DNA from: a virus
Direction: 5' to 3' (one strand)
Length of the DNA: 64,000 bases
Virus record (IMG/VR): IMGVR_UViG_3300046810_000101
Location: 1 to 64,000 of that record
In this document: positions 1,149-9,758 of the stretch, piece by piece
Numbering within the stretch: position 1 is the stretch's first letter
Layout: each line of letters opens with the position of its first letter
Notes under the pieces: generated by a model
The model's input: only the letters and a program-made list of their open reading frames with translations
What the model was told of the DNA's origin: nothing
Databases searched by the model: none
Program-made: the position numbers and the translations under genes

Positions 1149-2897
1149 TCAAGCGATTTCCCGTTGACGTTGCTGCGTTTCGTAAGGAGACGCCGACATA
1201 ACACCGGGTTGAACCGTAGTTTGATTTTGAATGCTAGTTGTAGGAGCATTGATGTTTGGACCACCACTACCACTACCACCCGATCCAGATTTGGCAGCTT
1301 CAACCTCTGCGGACTTCTGAGTTAGTTGCTGCTCTGCTTCATTTTCCGGGCTTGGTGCAAGTACGGGTGAACGGATTAGTGGTTGATATTGCCCATTAAT
1401 CTGTGGTGCCCCTGTTGGTGGACTAAGCAACTGTGTATTTTGCGTGGCATACCGCCCATACTTCTTCGCGTAGGCTTGTTGTTCCGGGGTTTGATGATCT
1501 GGGTCATTGGCATTTCCCTCTTGCTCTGCAATTTTATTTGCACTTTCAAGATTTTGTGCTTCAACCGGATCTGCACCACTAAACCAGCTACTTGGAATTG
1601 CCTTGTATACGGCATATGCCACACCACCAATCGCGGCAACGACGGCACCGGCTGCAAGGATTTCAGGTAGAGCTGCAATTACTGCACCACCTAACGCTGT
1701 AGCCCCGCCTGCAAGAACTGCACCACCCGCCATAGCCATTGTACCTAAACCACCAATTGCAGATGTTGCAGCCCCGGCGATAGTACCAACAGCACTAACA
1801 GCGGCGAACCCTGCGGATTCTTCTGCGGCATCCAATTGTTTCTTCTGCATCTTGATTTGGGTTTCTTGGTTTTTCAATTCCTTGATACGATCATTGGCCG
1901 CTTCAACAAGTAACTTCTCAGTTCTAGATGAACTTCCGCTCAATCGAGCAACATGCCATTTGATTGTCCCTACATCTTTCTGCATCAGTTCGAGAACTTT
2001 GTTATCACCACCCTTGTTACGATCCTGCATCAACTTTTCAATACGGTTAACCGTATTACTCTGTCTTGCAGTATGCCACTTGATGTTTGAAATATTCTTT
2101 CCAATAGCTTTGGTTTCACCCAATGCATGTTCGGCAATTGCCGCATTCTCTTGGGTTAGATAATCAATGCCGTGAAGGTATTCAAGTAGTTTCGCGTCAT
2201 GAACTTTGCTCGCATCATTGGCTTTATTGTCGTGCATCGCTTCAACAACTTCCGACATCTTTTCGACAGTCTCATGGAAAGTCTGAATAGCCGGTGTCAT
2301 TGATATGACGGTTGCCTGCATATGCATTGCTGCATCGGCCATTTTTTCAACCGCCGCCGACATCCCACCTTTACCACCAGATTTCGGCTCTGGAGCGTCC
2401 CCAGCGTCTCTCTGGGCGTCTTCCAGCTTACGGGCTGATGCTGCCTTGGCTTCGGCTTCTTCGCGTCGTGCGTCGAGCTTGGCTTTGATCTTTTCCATCC
2501 TAGCCATTTCCTTGATTTCGAGTTTTCTTCGAATGATCAAGGTCTTTTTGTATTGCTTGCGTTCGAGACTTGCGTTAGCAAATTTCTTCCCGAGGATTCT
2601 AAAGATCGCACCGGCAATAGGAATACCGCCGATTTCTCGACCGATAAATCCACCCGCTGCTTTGCCAACTGCACCAACGCCAGCCTTTGCGCCTCTACCT
2701 AATGCACCAACACCGCGTTTTGCAACATGAACAGCTCTGTTTGAACCAGCCGCCCGAGCATGACGGTTTTGTTTCCTTAGTTCTGCCAGAAGGGCTTTAT
2801 CAGCCCTTTTAGCTTGATGACTATCTAGTCGTTGATTGTCTAGGGCAGTTCGTAAACTGCTCAGGACATCAACTAGGTCTTCGTTATTGTCGGCCAT
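1149..2897 (-). CDS. Tail tape measure protein (gp29-like)
   Basis: This 582-residue protein is the likely tape measure, which sets tail length and sits inside the tube. T4 gp29 has 590 residues, so tail length should be similar. The N-terminal two thirds is rich in charged helix and coiled coil, with Ala/Glu/Lys runs at about 100-180. A long hydrophobic Gly/Ala stretch follows at about 360-435, then a Gly/Ser/Pro-rich tail; this helix plus membrane-segment layout is common in tape measures. It comes directly after the gp26 chaperone and its -1 frame extension (whose stop overlaps this start), the classical chaperone then tape measure order of long-tailed phages. The start ATG lacks a strong ribosome site and may depend on translation of the frameshift frame. 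Assignment rests on size, composition and position. Confidence 0.7.
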   Translation of the reverse strand: MADNNEDLVDVLSSLRTALDNQRLDSHQAKRADKALLAELRKQNRHARAAGSNRAVHVAKRGVGALGRGAKAGVGAVGKAAGGFIGREIGGIPIAGAIFRILGKKFANASLERKQYKKTLIIRRKLEIKEMARMEKIKAKLDARREEAEAKAASARKLEDAQRDAGDAPEPKSGGKGGMSAAVEKMADAAMHMQATVISMTPAIQTFHETVEKMSEVVEAMHDNKANDASKVHDAKLLEYLHGIDYLTQENAAIAEHALGETKAIGKNISNIKWHTARQSNTVNRIEKLMQDRNKGGDNKVLELMQKDVGTIKWHVARLSGSSSRTEKLLVEAANDRIKELKNQETQIKMQKKQLDAAEESAGFAAVSAVGTIAGAATSAIGGLGTMAMAGGAVLAGGATALGGAVIAALPEILAAGAVVAAIGGVAYAVYKAIPSSWFSGADPVEAQNLESANKIAEQEGNANDPDHQTPEQQAYAKKYGRYATQNTQLLSPPTGAPQINGQYQPLIRSPVLAPSPENEAEQQLTQKSAEVEAAKSGSGGSGSGGPNINAPTTSIQNQTTVQPGVMSASPYETQQRQREIA

Positions 2898-3878
2898 TTT
2901 TCTTTCTATCCATTTTTCTCTTTTCTTCGTCCAGCCACATCATAACTTGGGTAATCAAAGTTTTTCTTTCCCAAGGCATCATGGCCTCTAATTCAGACAG
3001 AGTATAATTGTGGTATTTTTGCAGACCGAAGTTGGTTTTCATGTAACTACCAAGGCTGTCTTCGGCCTGAGTTATCAGAAAAAATCTTGTAGGCCACGCA
3101 ACTCAATTTTTGCATGATGTCCGCATTTACGGCACGTAAAATCTGCATGTCCAGACACTGATGGGATATTGGTAAAGAACGCAATAACTTCATCAAACAC
3201 GGTCTGAGGCATCAGTTCGAGGAATTCAAGTGCATCATCGGCTTCGTAGTCTTCACCATATTTCAGAACAGAACCATCCGCTTTATACAGATAGGTCATG
3301 CACTCGGCGTAGACTGCCATAGTTGCATCAATGTCGTCTTCCGCGATACCGACATCATGGCGTGTAATCTGTTCGAAGTTAGGGTACTTCAAAATCAACT
3401 TTTCGATGGTTGCGGATTTAACTTCGATGATGCCTTTACTGATTTCGCTGGTAGCAACTTTGGCTTCTTTCAAACTAACAACCACACCATTTGCTTGATC
3501 GCAAGTGATTGGTTCTTGGTTTTCATTCAGTGTTTGGTTGCCTTCGTCGTCAAGTACCGGTGCTTTGCATAGGTAGAATGACTTGGATTGGGTTGTACCG
3601 GTTGAATGCATATGCAATTGGATGTAAATGTATTCAAGGTCGAAACTTGGTAGTTCGCCAATGTTGATATCACCGGACGTGACACAGTTTTGAATCAATT
3701 GAGTAACCGCGTTCACAATGTTGTCGAGTTGGTCATCACCCTCGGACTGTTTCGCGATCATCAATAGTTTTTGTTCTTTGGTCACGAAAGAACGTAGCGT
3801 AATCATCTTTCCGAGACTAGGAACTAGACATTTGAAAGTTGGTAGCGAATCTAATGCTAGGTTGGCAAGTTTGCCCAT
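2884..3878 (-). CDS. Frameshifted tail assembly chaperone (gp26 plus -1 extension)
   Basis: This is the predicted product if ribosomes slip -1 at 3084-3078. The 267-residue gp26 frame would then continue for 64 more residues to a stop at 2886-2884, giving about 331 residues. The extension is open from the slip point and protein-like: it holds the segment LSELEAMMPWERKTLI followed by a Glu/Lys-rich helix, similar in character to short proteins between chaperone and tape measure genes in other myoviruses. Its stop overlaps the tape measure start. This is the same logic as lambda G/GT. The alternative is independent translation of the last 52 residues from an internal ATG, but that ATG has only a poor ribosome site. 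Confidence 0.6.
3045..3084 (-). promoter_or_regulatory. Candidate -1 ribosomal frameshift site with stem-loop
   Basis: The coding strand holds the heptamer T TTT TTC (3084-3078) in the correct zero-frame phase, X XXY YYZ, immediately before the TGA stop of gp26. Four bases downstream an imperfect stem can form: AACT (3073-3070) with AGTT (3048-3045), and AGGC (3068-3065) with GCCT (3056-3053). The -1 frame is open to 2884. The heptamer, stop and open overlap are seen; slippage is inferred. Confidence 0.6.
3075..3878 (-). CDS. 26: Baseplate hub assembly / tail chaperone gp26
   Basis: This 267-residue protein belongs to the T4 gp26 baseplate-assembly family (T4 gp26 is 208 residues). It acts in assembly of the baseplate hub or tail rather than catalysis. 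A central beta-rich section (about 80-135) recognises tail proteins in related chaperones. The C-terminus carries a CRKCGHHAKIEL segment (residues 249-260), a half zinc knuckle seen in this family, and ends LQDFF. The last two codons, TTT TTC, form part of a slippery heptamer just before the stop. It lies 12 bases downstream of gp54 and directly upstream of the tape measure gene. Confidence 0.8.
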   Translation of the reverse strand: MGKLANLALDSLPTFKCLVPSLGKMITLRSFVTKEQKLLMIAKQSEGDDQLDNIVNAVTQLIQNCVTSGDINIGELPSFDLEYIYIQLHMHSTGTTQSKSFYLCKAPVLDDEGNQTLNENQEPITCDQANGVVVSLKEAKVATSEISKGIIEVKSATIEKLILKYPNFEQITRHDVGIAEDDIDATMAVYAECMTYLYKADGSVLKYGEDYEADDALEFLELMPQTVFDEVIAFFTNIPSVSGHADFTCRKCGHHAKIELRGLQDFF

Positions 3879-3890
3879 AATAAAATACTC

Positions 3891-4661
3891 TTATAAAATC
3901 TTGGTGATACGTTTGATGGAATCGTACCAATGTTTGGCTTCTGTAAAGATGTTGCCATCGCCTTCATCTTTGGCTTCTTTGGTTACAACGTTCTTGAATT
4001 TGAATTGAACATCAAATGTTGCAAGTTGGTTGTTGCTGTCATACGACATTTGCATATCGGAGACGTGAACCGGGTAAGCTTCCGCAATTTCCGTCTTCGA
4101 GGACATGTTGCCCTGTCTATCACAGAATTTGATGTTAATGTTGGCAACGTAGTCTTCATAGAATCCGAATTTGAAGTTATCCATGTTACACGCCCGGTTC
4201 ATCCAGTCTAAGAAGAACTGACGTTCTTTCTGCGACGGGGTTACAAGGAATGTCATGTTCAATAGATCAAATTCAGATCCGGTGACCATGCTATACGGCA
4301 CTTGGTTGGAATTGACTTCCGTGGTATTCAAGGTTCGCCCCGGAATACCCACATCCTTTACATACATTCCCAAGTCGTATGGATATTGCAAGTATTTATC
4401 AAGCATATCCCCAAGCCCTACCGCCCTGATAATCTCAGGGCTAAAGAATCCGGTCAGGTGTCGAAGGGGTTCAACCCGCGATAACACTTCCTTGGTCACG
4501 CTATCGGTGATGGATCTAAACAGGCTTCCGCCGTTATCTCCATCGATAGACTTGATCTTAATACCAATCTTGCTTGGGAATTCGACCTTGAACAAGTTTG
4601 CTCGTCCAAGGTCGTCTTTCAGTAATGCAGCCCTGAATTTGTCGATATCGATTGTTGCCAT
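3891..4661 (-). CDS. 54: Baseplate tail-tube initiator gp54
   Basis: This 256-residue protein matches T4 gp54 (320 residues), which caps the baseplate hub and starts tube polymerisation. The N-terminus, DIDKFRAALLKDDLGRANLF, resembles the gp54 start. The C-terminal half keeps family features: a polar FFLDWMNRACN helix, an INIKFCDRQG strand, and an EAYPVHVSDMQMSYDSNNQ segment leading into the final tube-fold strands. I chose the ATG at 4661 because it overlaps the upstream stop as TAATG; a longer in-frame extension would run deep into the neighbouring gene. It is shorter than T4 gp54, mainly in the N-terminal half. Confidence 0.8.
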   Translation of the reverse strand: MATIDIDKFRAALLKDDLGRANLFKVEFPSKIGIKIKSIDGDNGGSLFRSITDSVTKEVLSRVEPLRHLTGFFSPEIIRAVGLGDMLDKYLQYPYDLGMYVKDVGIPGRTLNTTEVNSNQVPYSMVTGSEFDLLNMTFLVTPSQKERQFFLDWMNRACNMDNFKFGFYEDYVANINIKFCDRQGNMSSKTEIAEAYPVHVSDMQMSYDSNNQLATFDVQFKFKNVVTKEAKDEGDGNIFTEAKHWYDSIKRITKIL

Positions 4662-5254
4662 TAGTGTGTCTTCCCATCCGCCCAAACTTTTCGTGCAGAG
4701 AAACGTTTGCCGTCTTTGTCCAAGAATTGTTGTGTCGGTAGATAAATTGCGTTGGCCCAATACATCGGATTGATTTCAACCATATGACCCTTGATCCGAG
4801 AACGGATATAGCACTTGATCATTTTCTCAGCACCCGGATAACGTTTAACCGCATCCCAGTTGATTTTGAAATATGCTCTAGGCCCAAGGTTCTTTTGGCT
4901 TAACATCTTTAGAATTTTCTCCATGAAAACCTGTCTGGCCTTCGGCGGGAGATAGTGTAGGTTCAACCCCAATTGGTGGGTTGGTGTTACATCCAACATG
5001 ATGATAAGCGGGAATCGATCCCAGTACGGGAGTGTCTTTTTGTACTTTGCATCATACACATAGGTGTACATCTTCCCAGCCTGTAGCTTAGGGGCGATCT
5101 TGGACTTGGGGATACCTTCTACAGTGTCCTTGAACCATTTGATGCTTTTGTTGTTCTTCTTAGCGTTGGGTAGGGCATCCATTGCAGCCAATGAGGCTCT
5201 AAACTGGGCTACCCTATCCGGTTCTTTACGAACCCGTGTTCTTGTCTCTGCCAT
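4661..5254 (-). CDS. Conserved T4-superfamily structural/assembly protein, unknown role
   Basis: This 197-residue basic protein has a central segment LPYWDRFPLIIMLDVTP followed by LGLNLHYLPPKAR. I recognise it as typical of a conserved virion-region protein found near baseplate or head completion genes in many T4-like phages. It could be a hub protein (gp28-like) or a DNA-end/neck factor; the sequence gives no catalytic motif. Its start (ATG at 5254) overlaps the gp4 stop as TAATG, and its own stop overlaps the gp54 start the same way, so all three are translationally coupled. Confidence 0.6.
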   Translation of the reverse strand: MAETRTRVRKEPDRVAQFRASLAAMDALPNAKKNNKSIKWFKDTVEGIPKSKIAPKLQAGKMYTYVYDAKYKKTLPYWDRFPLIIMLDVTPTHQLGLNLHYLPPKARQVFMEKILKMLSQKNLGPRAYFKINWDAVKRYPGAEKMIKCYIRSRIKGHMVEINPMYWANAIYLPTQQFLDKDGKRFSARKVWADGKTH

Positions 5255-7287: not shown

Positions 7288-8506
7288 TGGTTTAAACCAA
7301 CCACAAAATTCCCACATCATCAAATACATCAATCTGATTAACTTTCAAGATAGCAAGTATGACATTTCAAGAGTCATGCAAAAGCTAACAATCTTTGAAA
7401 ACATGGTAGGGAAACAACCCTACCAACATGGAACGATTTCAGTAATTGATGATAACGGGTTGCATATCAACTTACCGATTGTGGGTCAGGAATGGTTGGA
7501 AGTATCATTTCAGACCCGCGTAGATGGTGGTGCGGTTGGTGAAGCGGAATATGTGAAGCGTTATAAGATCACTCAAATCTATAACCTACAGAAACAAAAA
7601 GACAACAACAACCAAGCATTGGTTATGGATTTTGTATCGGAAGGCTTCTGGAAATCTGAATCGAATCTATTTTCCAAGTCTTATAAACAAGCTGTTACCT
7701 CCGATATCGTTACCGATATCATGGAAAACGGACTTGGGTTGAAAGTCGAAGTCGAACCTACGCTGTATCCGCGTGATTGGATCATTCCAAACACAACTGG
7801 AATTGATTTTATCTACCGTCTCACAAACGAATCGACTAGCAAAGACAATCTGTCAAGCGACTATAGGTTGTTTGAGAACATTTCCGGTTGGCACTTCAAA
7901 TCCATGTACACATTGGGTAAAGCTGAATTCAAGAAGCGATTGAACGCCAACATCGACAACATTTCTCAATTTGATCGAATGAAGGCCGATGCAGTTTCGA
8001 AAGACGTACACTTTGATCTGCATGACCGGATCGAAGGTGGATATCAGATCACGATTGACGAAATTGATACAATTGAGAAGCGGGCTGTAAATTCTCAGAT
8101 TGGGTATGATGATTATGTCACTGCATTCCCAACCATGAACCCGGAAAAGATTTACGTTGGTAAGGTTGCCCCTGAGTATCCAAAAGATATGCACTACCGA
8201 GTGCTACCGGGCAATTCTGTATATGATTCAAACCGCGACTCTCAGGTTAACCAGAGATTGAAGCGGATTATGAGTAGATCACTGTTGAATTCCACGGAAA
8301 TGACTCTAAAGATTCCGGGAAACATTGATTTGCAACTTGGTGATACTGTTTATTTCGATTTCAAATATGAAGACATGATTGATCACACTAGTTCGGGTAA
8401 GTATCTGCTTTGTCAAATTAAGCATGAGATTACCATGAAAGATTATCACATGATCGTAAATATTCGAAAAGAATCGAATATCAAAGGTGATAAAATTGAA
8501 GAGTAA
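7274..8506 (+). CDS. 27: Baseplate hub protein gp27
   Basis: This 410-residue protein (T4 gp27 is 391) forms the trimeric hub ring to which the gp5 spike binds. Family features include an N-terminal beta-barrel segment and central strands around a Trp/Tyr-rich region. A C-terminal barrel follows, with the typical GNIDLQLGDTVYFDF segment and GKYLLCQIKHEI near residues 350-385, the usual end of hub tube-like domains. It overlaps gp53 and the gp5 start. Confidence 0.88.
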   Translation: MGVPNGLNQPQNSHIIKYINLINFQDSKYDISRVMQKLTIFENMVGKQPYQHGTISVIDDNGLHINLPIVGQEWLEVSFQTRVDGGAVGEAEYVKRYKITQIYNLQKQKDNNNQALVMDFVSEGFWKSESNLFSKSYKQAVTSDIVTDIMENGLGLKVEVEPTLYPRDWIIPNTTGIDFIYRLTNESTSKDNLSSDYRLFENISGWHFKSMYTLGKAEFKKRLNANIDNISQFDRMKADAVSKDVHFDLHDRIEGGYQITIDEIDTIEKRAVNSQIGYDDYVTAFPTMNPEKIYVGKVAPEYPKDMHYRVLPGNSVYDSNRDSQVNQRLKRIMSRSLLNSTEMTLKIPGNIDLQLGDTVYFDFKYEDMIDHTSSGKYLLCQIKHEITMKDYHMIVNIRKESNIKGDKIEE

Positions 8507-9758
8507 GACACAATTCGAGCTGAATTGGTTTTTCGGGAAAGTTGAAGCCAGAAATGACCCCCTTGAAATGGGTAGACTGCGCGTCCGGGTCTACGGCTGC
8601 CACACCGCCGACAAAGTAAAAGACCAATTCAAGGGAATCCCGACCAACGAACTGTTATGGGCACAAACCATCAACAGCGTGCAGTCGGCTTCCGTAAGTG
8701 GTGTAGGTCTATCTCCAAATGGCCCTGTAGAGGGTTCTATGGTGTTTGGGTTCTTCTTGGACGGCCATCTGTGCCAGCTCCCGTATATCATGGGAACAAT
8801 TGATGGTATCCCAGTAGCGGCTGCCGACAAGACCCAAGGGTTTAACGATCCGAAAGGTTTGTATCCAAAGTATTTGAACGAACCGGATCTAAACCGTCTG
8901 GCACGTTCTGCTTTCAGAACCCACGCTGGGCTTGTAGCCAAGATGGCCGGTCGGATTACGGGTATCCCAACCGCTATGGATAACGTGGCTGGTACGGGGG
9001 TTCTGGGGTCTACAAACACCCTTGGGCCGAAGTGGGACGAACCAGCCCCGGCGAACAACACCCAGTACCCATATAACCATGTTCGAGAAACCGAATCGGG
9101 TCATGTTGAAGAATATGATGATACTCCCGGTGCGGAAAGAATGCATTGGATGCATGGTACTACCGGAACCTATGAAGAATGGCAACCGGATGGAACGGTT
9201 TCCCAAAAGGTTACCGGTGATTCAATCGCTATTGTAGTCGGTGACCGCAAGATTCTAGTTGGTTCAAACCAGCAAATCACTATTATCGGTAATGCAAAGC
9301 TTCTGGTTCAAGGAAACGTGCAGGAACAGGTTAATGGAAACGTAACCAGATTGATCAAGGGTAACCTATCTGAAAAGATTGAAGGTAACTACGCCCGCGA
9401 TGTTTTGGGTGAATCGTTCACAAACAGCCAAGGTAACGTAATACAACGCGATGGCTCCAACAGAACAGAAGTTGTCGCCCTAAACAAAACCGAATCGATT
9501 GGTGCAAACAACTCTCTACAAATCGGTGCTACAAATTCGGTTCAATGTTTGGGTGATTGGACACAGACCGCCGCTACCAACTTCACCCATATTACCGGTG
9601 GTAAAAGAACCGATATGGTTGGTGGTAACTACGGGATCAACGTTTCGTCTGCATATGGCCTAGCCTGTGCGACATTCAGTGTTGGTGTTTCTGGGGCCGC
9701 AACAATTGATGCAACTGGTCCAACCGCGATTCTCGGTTCCCGGATCGATTTAAACTAA
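8487..9758 (+). CDS. 5: Baseplate spike gp5 without lysozyme domain
   Basis: This 423-residue spike protein has an N-terminal OB-fold (FFGKVEARNDPLEMGRLRVRV, residues 12-32) and a VgrG-like linker, YNHVRETESGHVEEYDDTPG, near 195-214. A triple-stranded beta-helix is built from octads of the form VxGNxxxx (VQGNVQEQ, VNGNVTRL, IKGNLSEK) from about residue 255 to 370. T4 gp5 is 575 residues and carries a lysozyme between OB-fold and helix; here that space holds only a short linker with no lysozyme motifs. The GTG at 8487 is used. A TTG at 8496 with AAGG 8 bases upstream is an equally good start. Confidence 0.88.
   Translation: MIKLKSKTQFELNWFFGKVEARNDPLEMGRLRVRVYGCHTADKVKDQFKGIPTNELLWAQTINSVQSASVSGVGLSPNGPVEGSMVFGFFLDGHLCQLPYIMGTIDGIPVAAADKTQGFNDPKGLYPKYLNEPDLNRLARSAFRTHAGLVAKMAGRITGIPTAMDNVAGTGVLGSTNTLGPKWDEPAPANNTQYPYNHVRETESGHVEEYDDTPGAERMHWMHGTTGTYEEWQPDGTVSQKVTGDSIAIVVGDRKILVGSNQQITIIGNAKLLVQGNVQEQVNGNVTRLIKGNLSEKIEGNYARDVLGESFTNSQGNVIQRDGSNRTEVVALNKTESIGANNSLQIGATNSVQCLGDWTQTAATNFTHITGGKRTDMVGGNYGINVSSAYGLACATFSVGVSGAATIDATGPTAILGSRIDLN

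Follow-up and report, generated by a model that had tools for sequence, protein, structure and literature searches.

How could a phage with a single gp26-like tail-assembly chaperone gene come by a gp51-like protein, when the gp51-like part lies behind that gene in another reading frame? The locus that raises this question lies on the minus strand of the first 64,000 nucleotides of IMG/VR virus record IMGVR_UViG_3300046810_000101; this whole stretch is called the window below. The most probable answer, to which we give a rough probability of 0.93, is that −1 programmed frameshifting yields two tail-assembly chaperones, the short gp26 and a long gp26-gp51-like form. The first-pass annotation of this DNA had already proposed a long chaperone form, and the conserved heptamer, its phase and the −1 extension found by sequence comparison support that proposal. 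The site, its phase and conservation, the coding constraint, the homology between extension and gp51 and the single genome copy were all computed here. The features concerned are the following.

3075–3878, minus strand: gp26-like gene, short form of the tail-assembly chaperone, 267 amino acids (PF12322, E 6e-40; phrog_150)
3078–3084, minus strand: slippery heptamer T TTT TTC in X XXY YYZ phase (TTTTTT kept in 85/85 non-redundant relatives)
3075–3077, minus strand: short-form stop codon TGA, directly after the heptamer (in relatives the stop lies 0–8 codons past the heptamer)
3022–3069, minus strand: predicted stimulatory hairpin, outer arms 3060–3069 / 3022–3031 and inner arms 3049–3053 / 3032–3036 (from folding and relatives)
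2884–3078, minus strand: −1-frame extension, 64 codons plus stop, gp51-like C-terminal domain (phrog_634; gp51 C-termini profile match)

The 3′ end of the gp26 open reading frame (ORF) reads ...GGC CTA CAA GAT TTT TTC TGA. From position 3078 the −1 frame contains exactly 64 open codons up to a stop at 2884–2886, running into the beginning of the next ORF, whose ATG is at 2897; the predicted long form has 331 amino acids in total. Both the in-phase heptamer right before the gp26 stop and the 64 open codons reaching the next gene had been pointed out in the first-pass annotation and are borne out. The stem, which had been placed 4 bases past the heptamer, needs correction, since the best predicted hairpin begins 8 nt downstream. 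In-phase TTTTTT is rare in this DNA: 69 non-overlapping window ORFs, with 19,351 codons in all, contain it just twice, the gp26 slip site included.

The protein families of the two frames show what a frameshift would join. The gp26 ORF matches the full PF12322 domain over residues 14–267, and it also matches phrog_150; none of the solved structures matches it by sequence. The −1 extension matches phrog_634, named 'baseplate hub assembly catalyst', which is the family of T4 gp51 (E 2e-17). T4 gp51 has PF12322 over residues 1–201 (E 4e-52) and then, in the same protein, a phrog_634 part; judged by sequence it is thus a paralogue of gp26 to which the extension has been fused in frame. When the extensions were turned into a profile, the gp51 C-termini of 11/11 two-gene phages matched it (E 2e-12 to 0.004), their gp26 proteins did not, and by this match the extension is a homologue of the T4 gp51 C-terminus. 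In the window phage the PF12322 part and the phrog_634 part stand in gp51 order and would be joined only if the frameshift occurs. The 167.8-kb genome sequence, a record that may be a fragment, contains a single PF12322 locus and a single, adjacent phrog_634 locus, so this sequence does not show the T4-type arrangement with two PF12322 genes (26 and 51). A gp51-like protein could therefore be made from the 167.8-kb sequence only by joining both frames.

The conservation of heptamer and phase was determined in an unbiased set of 80 IMG/VR viral contigs, retrieved by the extension protein alone and not by the heptamer. For this contig scan the profile was limited to alignment A2, which comprises eight marine loci; with all 14 diverse extensions it was too divergent. 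In all 80 contigs the extension is encoded in frame −1 relative to the gp26 ORF before it, and 79/80 have TTTTTT at the site, followed by C (33), A (23), T (20) or G (3) as the seventh base. A second set, retrieved with the window's own extension, agreed in 17/17 cases, three of which repeat earlier loci. Among 85 non-redundant loci below 80% identity the six-T run is invariant though the encoded residues vary (SFF, SFL, DFF, NFF, TFL and others); the probability of such invariance from synonymous choice alone is about 10^-38.6 if the loci are taken as independent, and kinship makes the true figure less extreme. The site T TTT TT(C/T/G) with a −1 extension is also present in Pseudomonas phage Astolliot (46% identity), Syn19, Aeh1, Cronobacter S13, Caulobacter Cr30, Sinorhizobium phiN3, a KVP40-type vibriophage, Pelagibacter phage Mosig, Delftia PhiW-14, Stenotrophomonas BUCT608, Acidovorax ACP17, Rhizobium N34, pf16 and Nitratidesulfovibrio SRB7757. 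Heptamer, phase and −1 extension are conserved across Otagovirus, cyanophages, rhizobial phages and about 100 uncultivated loci, and the loss of the heptamer among relatives that the first-pass annotation had named as refuting its idea was not what the comparison gave. In Pelagibacter phage Mosig (L025 3672–3705) and in contigs L053 and L059 (near 1501) the short form continues for eight codons past the heptamer.

Phages with both genes served as a control. In T4 and nine other T4-type two-gene phages the C-terminal motif of gp26 is mostly similar (KGLKEFFK and the like), encoded by codons such as GAG TTC TTT, GAA TTC TTC and AGT TTC CTT. None of these ten phages has T TTT TTN behind gene 26, and none has a −1 extension there; gene 25 comes next. 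The earlier remark that T4 is not usually described as frameshifting at this place agrees with this result, as T4 is without the slip site and has gene 51 instead.

Signals on both sides of the heptamer were evaluated against shuffles that keep the protein, with codons drawn from the same gene. Over the 85 loci an excess of RNA structure was found just downstream of the heptamer (mean z −1.35, p 2e-13), with values of about −0.1 to −0.4 elsewhere. Pairing to the anti-Shine-Dalgarno sequence peaked upstream in relatives, for 8-mers starting 14–17 nt before the heptamer (mean z −1.23, p 3e-12), and a Shine-Dalgarno (SD)-like GAGGG occurs about 10–15 nt upstream of the heptamer in most of them. 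The window hairpin consists of a 10-bp outer helix and an inner 5-bp helix with a folding energy of −17.2 kcal/mol (z −2.9 versus dinucleotide shuffles, 1/200 of which were as good); an Rfam search gave no match in the region. The hairpin is kept in close kin, with 92% of cells paired. In six relatives two pairs have two-sided changes: Astolliot has A-U in place of G-C, and L007/L008 have U-A in place of C-G. From so few sequences these changes are no more than supportive of the predicted window hairpin.

Several observations weigh against frameshifting. The window's own SD-like element is weak. The stem is lineage-specific, and its comparison comprises five distinct sequences with two two-sided pairs only. 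One contig, L059, reads TGTTTTC at 1495–1501, where the close contig L053 has TTTTTTC; this may be a sequence error, or the slip site may contain a G there. For the short form, the predicted fold (predicted local distance difference test score of 90) is no more than suggestive of a resemblance to the HK97 tail-assembly chaperone 2ob9, the highest-probability PDB match shown, with a Foldseek probability of 0.75 and a non-significant E of 0.66.

The alternative that survives best, though we consider it improbable, is that the downstream ORF is a separate small gene started at an internal ATG, for which no frameshift would be needed. An ATG is indeed present in the window at 3042 and would give a 52-amino-acid ORF, and databases annotate such ORFs as separate genes. 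This ATG, the first in the window extension, is however codon 13, and the codons preceding it are conserved as −1-frame protein: over the first 13 extension codons the differences from Astolliot number 2, 3 and 10 at −1-frame codon positions 1, 2 and 3, respectively. The residues before that ATG are conserved even in phages that have no ATG there, and among relatives the position of the ATG varies or the ATG is absent. SD strength in the window alone does not discriminate between an internal start and a frameshift; across the extensions the first ATGs are on average without an SD, the mean strength being 0.2 kcal/mol, versus −5.8 at gp26 starts. An internal start would also leave the invariant TTTTTT and the fixed −1 phase unexplained. 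Production of the extension from an internal ATG only, the other outcome that the first-pass annotation had allowed for, is hence disfavored on two counts: the sequence before that ATG is constrained in the −1 frame, and neither an ATG nor an SD is conserved there.

Slippage of the RNA polymerase on the run of six T, producing mRNAs in the other frame, is slightly less probable still. A homopolymer run is present at the site and some bacterial genes use such runs for transcriptional slippage, but six-base runs are generally short for efficient slippage of this type. Moreover, in relatives the six T stay in codon phase whichever base comes next (C, A, T or G), and the structured RNA downstream and the SD-like element upstream that these relatives have are signals that act on ribosomes. 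A sequencing or assembly error, or decay of a formerly fused gp26-gp51 gene, is conceivable given that homopolymer runs are prone to error and that a fused gp51 exists in two-gene phages, but its probability is negligible with the same phase at about 100 loci, including the finished phage genomes Aeh1, Syn19 and Cr30, and with the extension under purifying selection.

For programmed −1 frameshifting at T TTT TTC the following course can be proposed. Most ribosomes would halt at the TGA at 3075–3077 and release the 267-amino-acid gp26 form. In a minority the tRNAs on TTT TTC would slip back one base on the heptamer and the ribosome would read 64 more codons, to give the 331-amino-acid form ending in the gp51-like domain. 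The RNA hairpin 8 nt downstream probably makes slippage more frequent, and so, probably, does the upstream SD-like GAGGG of most relatives. By analogy with lambda gpG/gpGT, the short form may coat the tape measure, and the extra domain of the long form may recruit tail-tube or hub subunits. T4-type phages obtain the same two products from two paralogous genes, 26 for the short form and 51 for the long form. The slippage itself, its rate and the partners bound by both proteins are what we infer from these comparisons.

This kind of system is already known from the literature. The lambda tail-assembly chaperones G and GT are made by −1 frameshifting (Levin 1993; Xu 2004; review PMC5009743), and the 2016 review describes the G/GT frameshift as a conserved trait of long-tailed phages 'except T4' (PMC5009743). 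As in lambda GT, the extension studied here is a separate C-terminal domain; no sequence similarity between lambda G/GT and the window proteins was found. The lambda slip site is G GGA AAG, against T TTT TTC in the window phage. Tail-assembly chaperones have been recognized in T4 gp26/gp51 by Vladimirov, Gautam and Davidson (2022, Virology 566:9-15), as related in the citing papers PMC10885494 and PMC12846349. According to a passage in the former, some T4-like phages have a short gene and a fused long gene, and according to one in the latter, which cites Vladimirov et al. 2022, poly-T slippery sequences occur in such genes of T4-like phages. T4 gp26/gp51 share with the window proteins the PF12322 family and the phrog_634 C-terminal domain, gp26 being the short and gp51 the long form; the difference is that T4 and its close kin have two genes without a slip site whereas the window phage has one gene with it. 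Vandenendeviridae and Andersonviridae have a tail-assembly-chaperone frameshift with a conserved GTTTTT (PMC12846349). There, too, the short-form gene ends in a T-run on which the −1 shift takes place, and the downstream ORF is annotated separately, but it is another phage group with another motif, and the likeness is one of layout. Finally, the arrangement of SD-like element, slippery heptamer and downstream hairpin resembles dnaX-type signals, with similar spacing in the relatives of the window phage; in dnaX-type signals the gene is a different one and the heptamer is A AAA AAG instead of T TTT TTN, and in the window phage the SD-like part is weak. Added here are the window's member of the system, a phase count made blind to the heptamer, the control with two-gene phages and the statistics on signals beside the site, parts of which may already be contained in Vladimirov et al. 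2022.

The relation between one-gene and two-gene phages was considered with a tree, which is unrooted and whose bootstrap had not settled. All gp51 proteins grouped together (100/99), the gp26 proteins of two-gene phages formed another group with the exception of the long-branched RB43, which stood apart, and the one-gene proteins formed a third group that included Aeh1, S13 and the KVP40-type phage of the same family Straboviridae. This fits a single split, whether one gene or two is taken as ancestral. The gp26 genes of Ackermannviridae (L107 2001–2971, L124 2151–2956, L126–L144 around 1501) have a −1-frame gp51-like extension without the six-T run; 21/21 loci have the junction (G/A) ATT TTC ATY TAA, with a stop that in Aglimvirinae shares bases with an ATG (TAATG).

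We lean somewhat towards a broader proposal, in which frameshifting with an SD-like element, six T and a hairpin would be the general rule in T4-like phages outside the T4-type Straboviridae, T4 would represent one derived split into genes 26 and 51 with loss of the slip site, and Ackermannviridae would make the long form via a non-canonical site or stop–start coupling. In every one-gene record retrieved with annotation the two parts were left unjoined. Frameshifting would account for the small orphan ORF behind gp26, which is listed as a hypothetical protein or 'baseplate hub assembly catalyst', or missed. T4 gp51 is essential and its function was called unknown in a 2010 review (PMC3004832); it gains a concrete reading as the long chaperone form. 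The textbook exception, T4 without a G/GT frameshift, would not hold for T4-like phages in general.

The ORF that follows the extension is listed here.

1149–2897, minus strand: putative tape measure ORF, 582 amino acids (position only)

It has no Pfam or PHROG match, and its putative assignment as tape measure is based on its position and on a nearby downstream ORF that is annotated as tape measure in Caulobacter phage Cr30; a T4 gp29-type tape measure was not found in the 167.8-kb genome. One other slippery sequence in phase, T TTA AAC (9752–9758, at the end of ORF 8487–9758), was rejected as a chance occurrence, the −1 frame stopping there after two codons. On the minus strand of the window, the region of the chaperone and the putative tape measure lies between two genes of phrog_45, a tail-tube family, at 619–1140 and 3891–4697.
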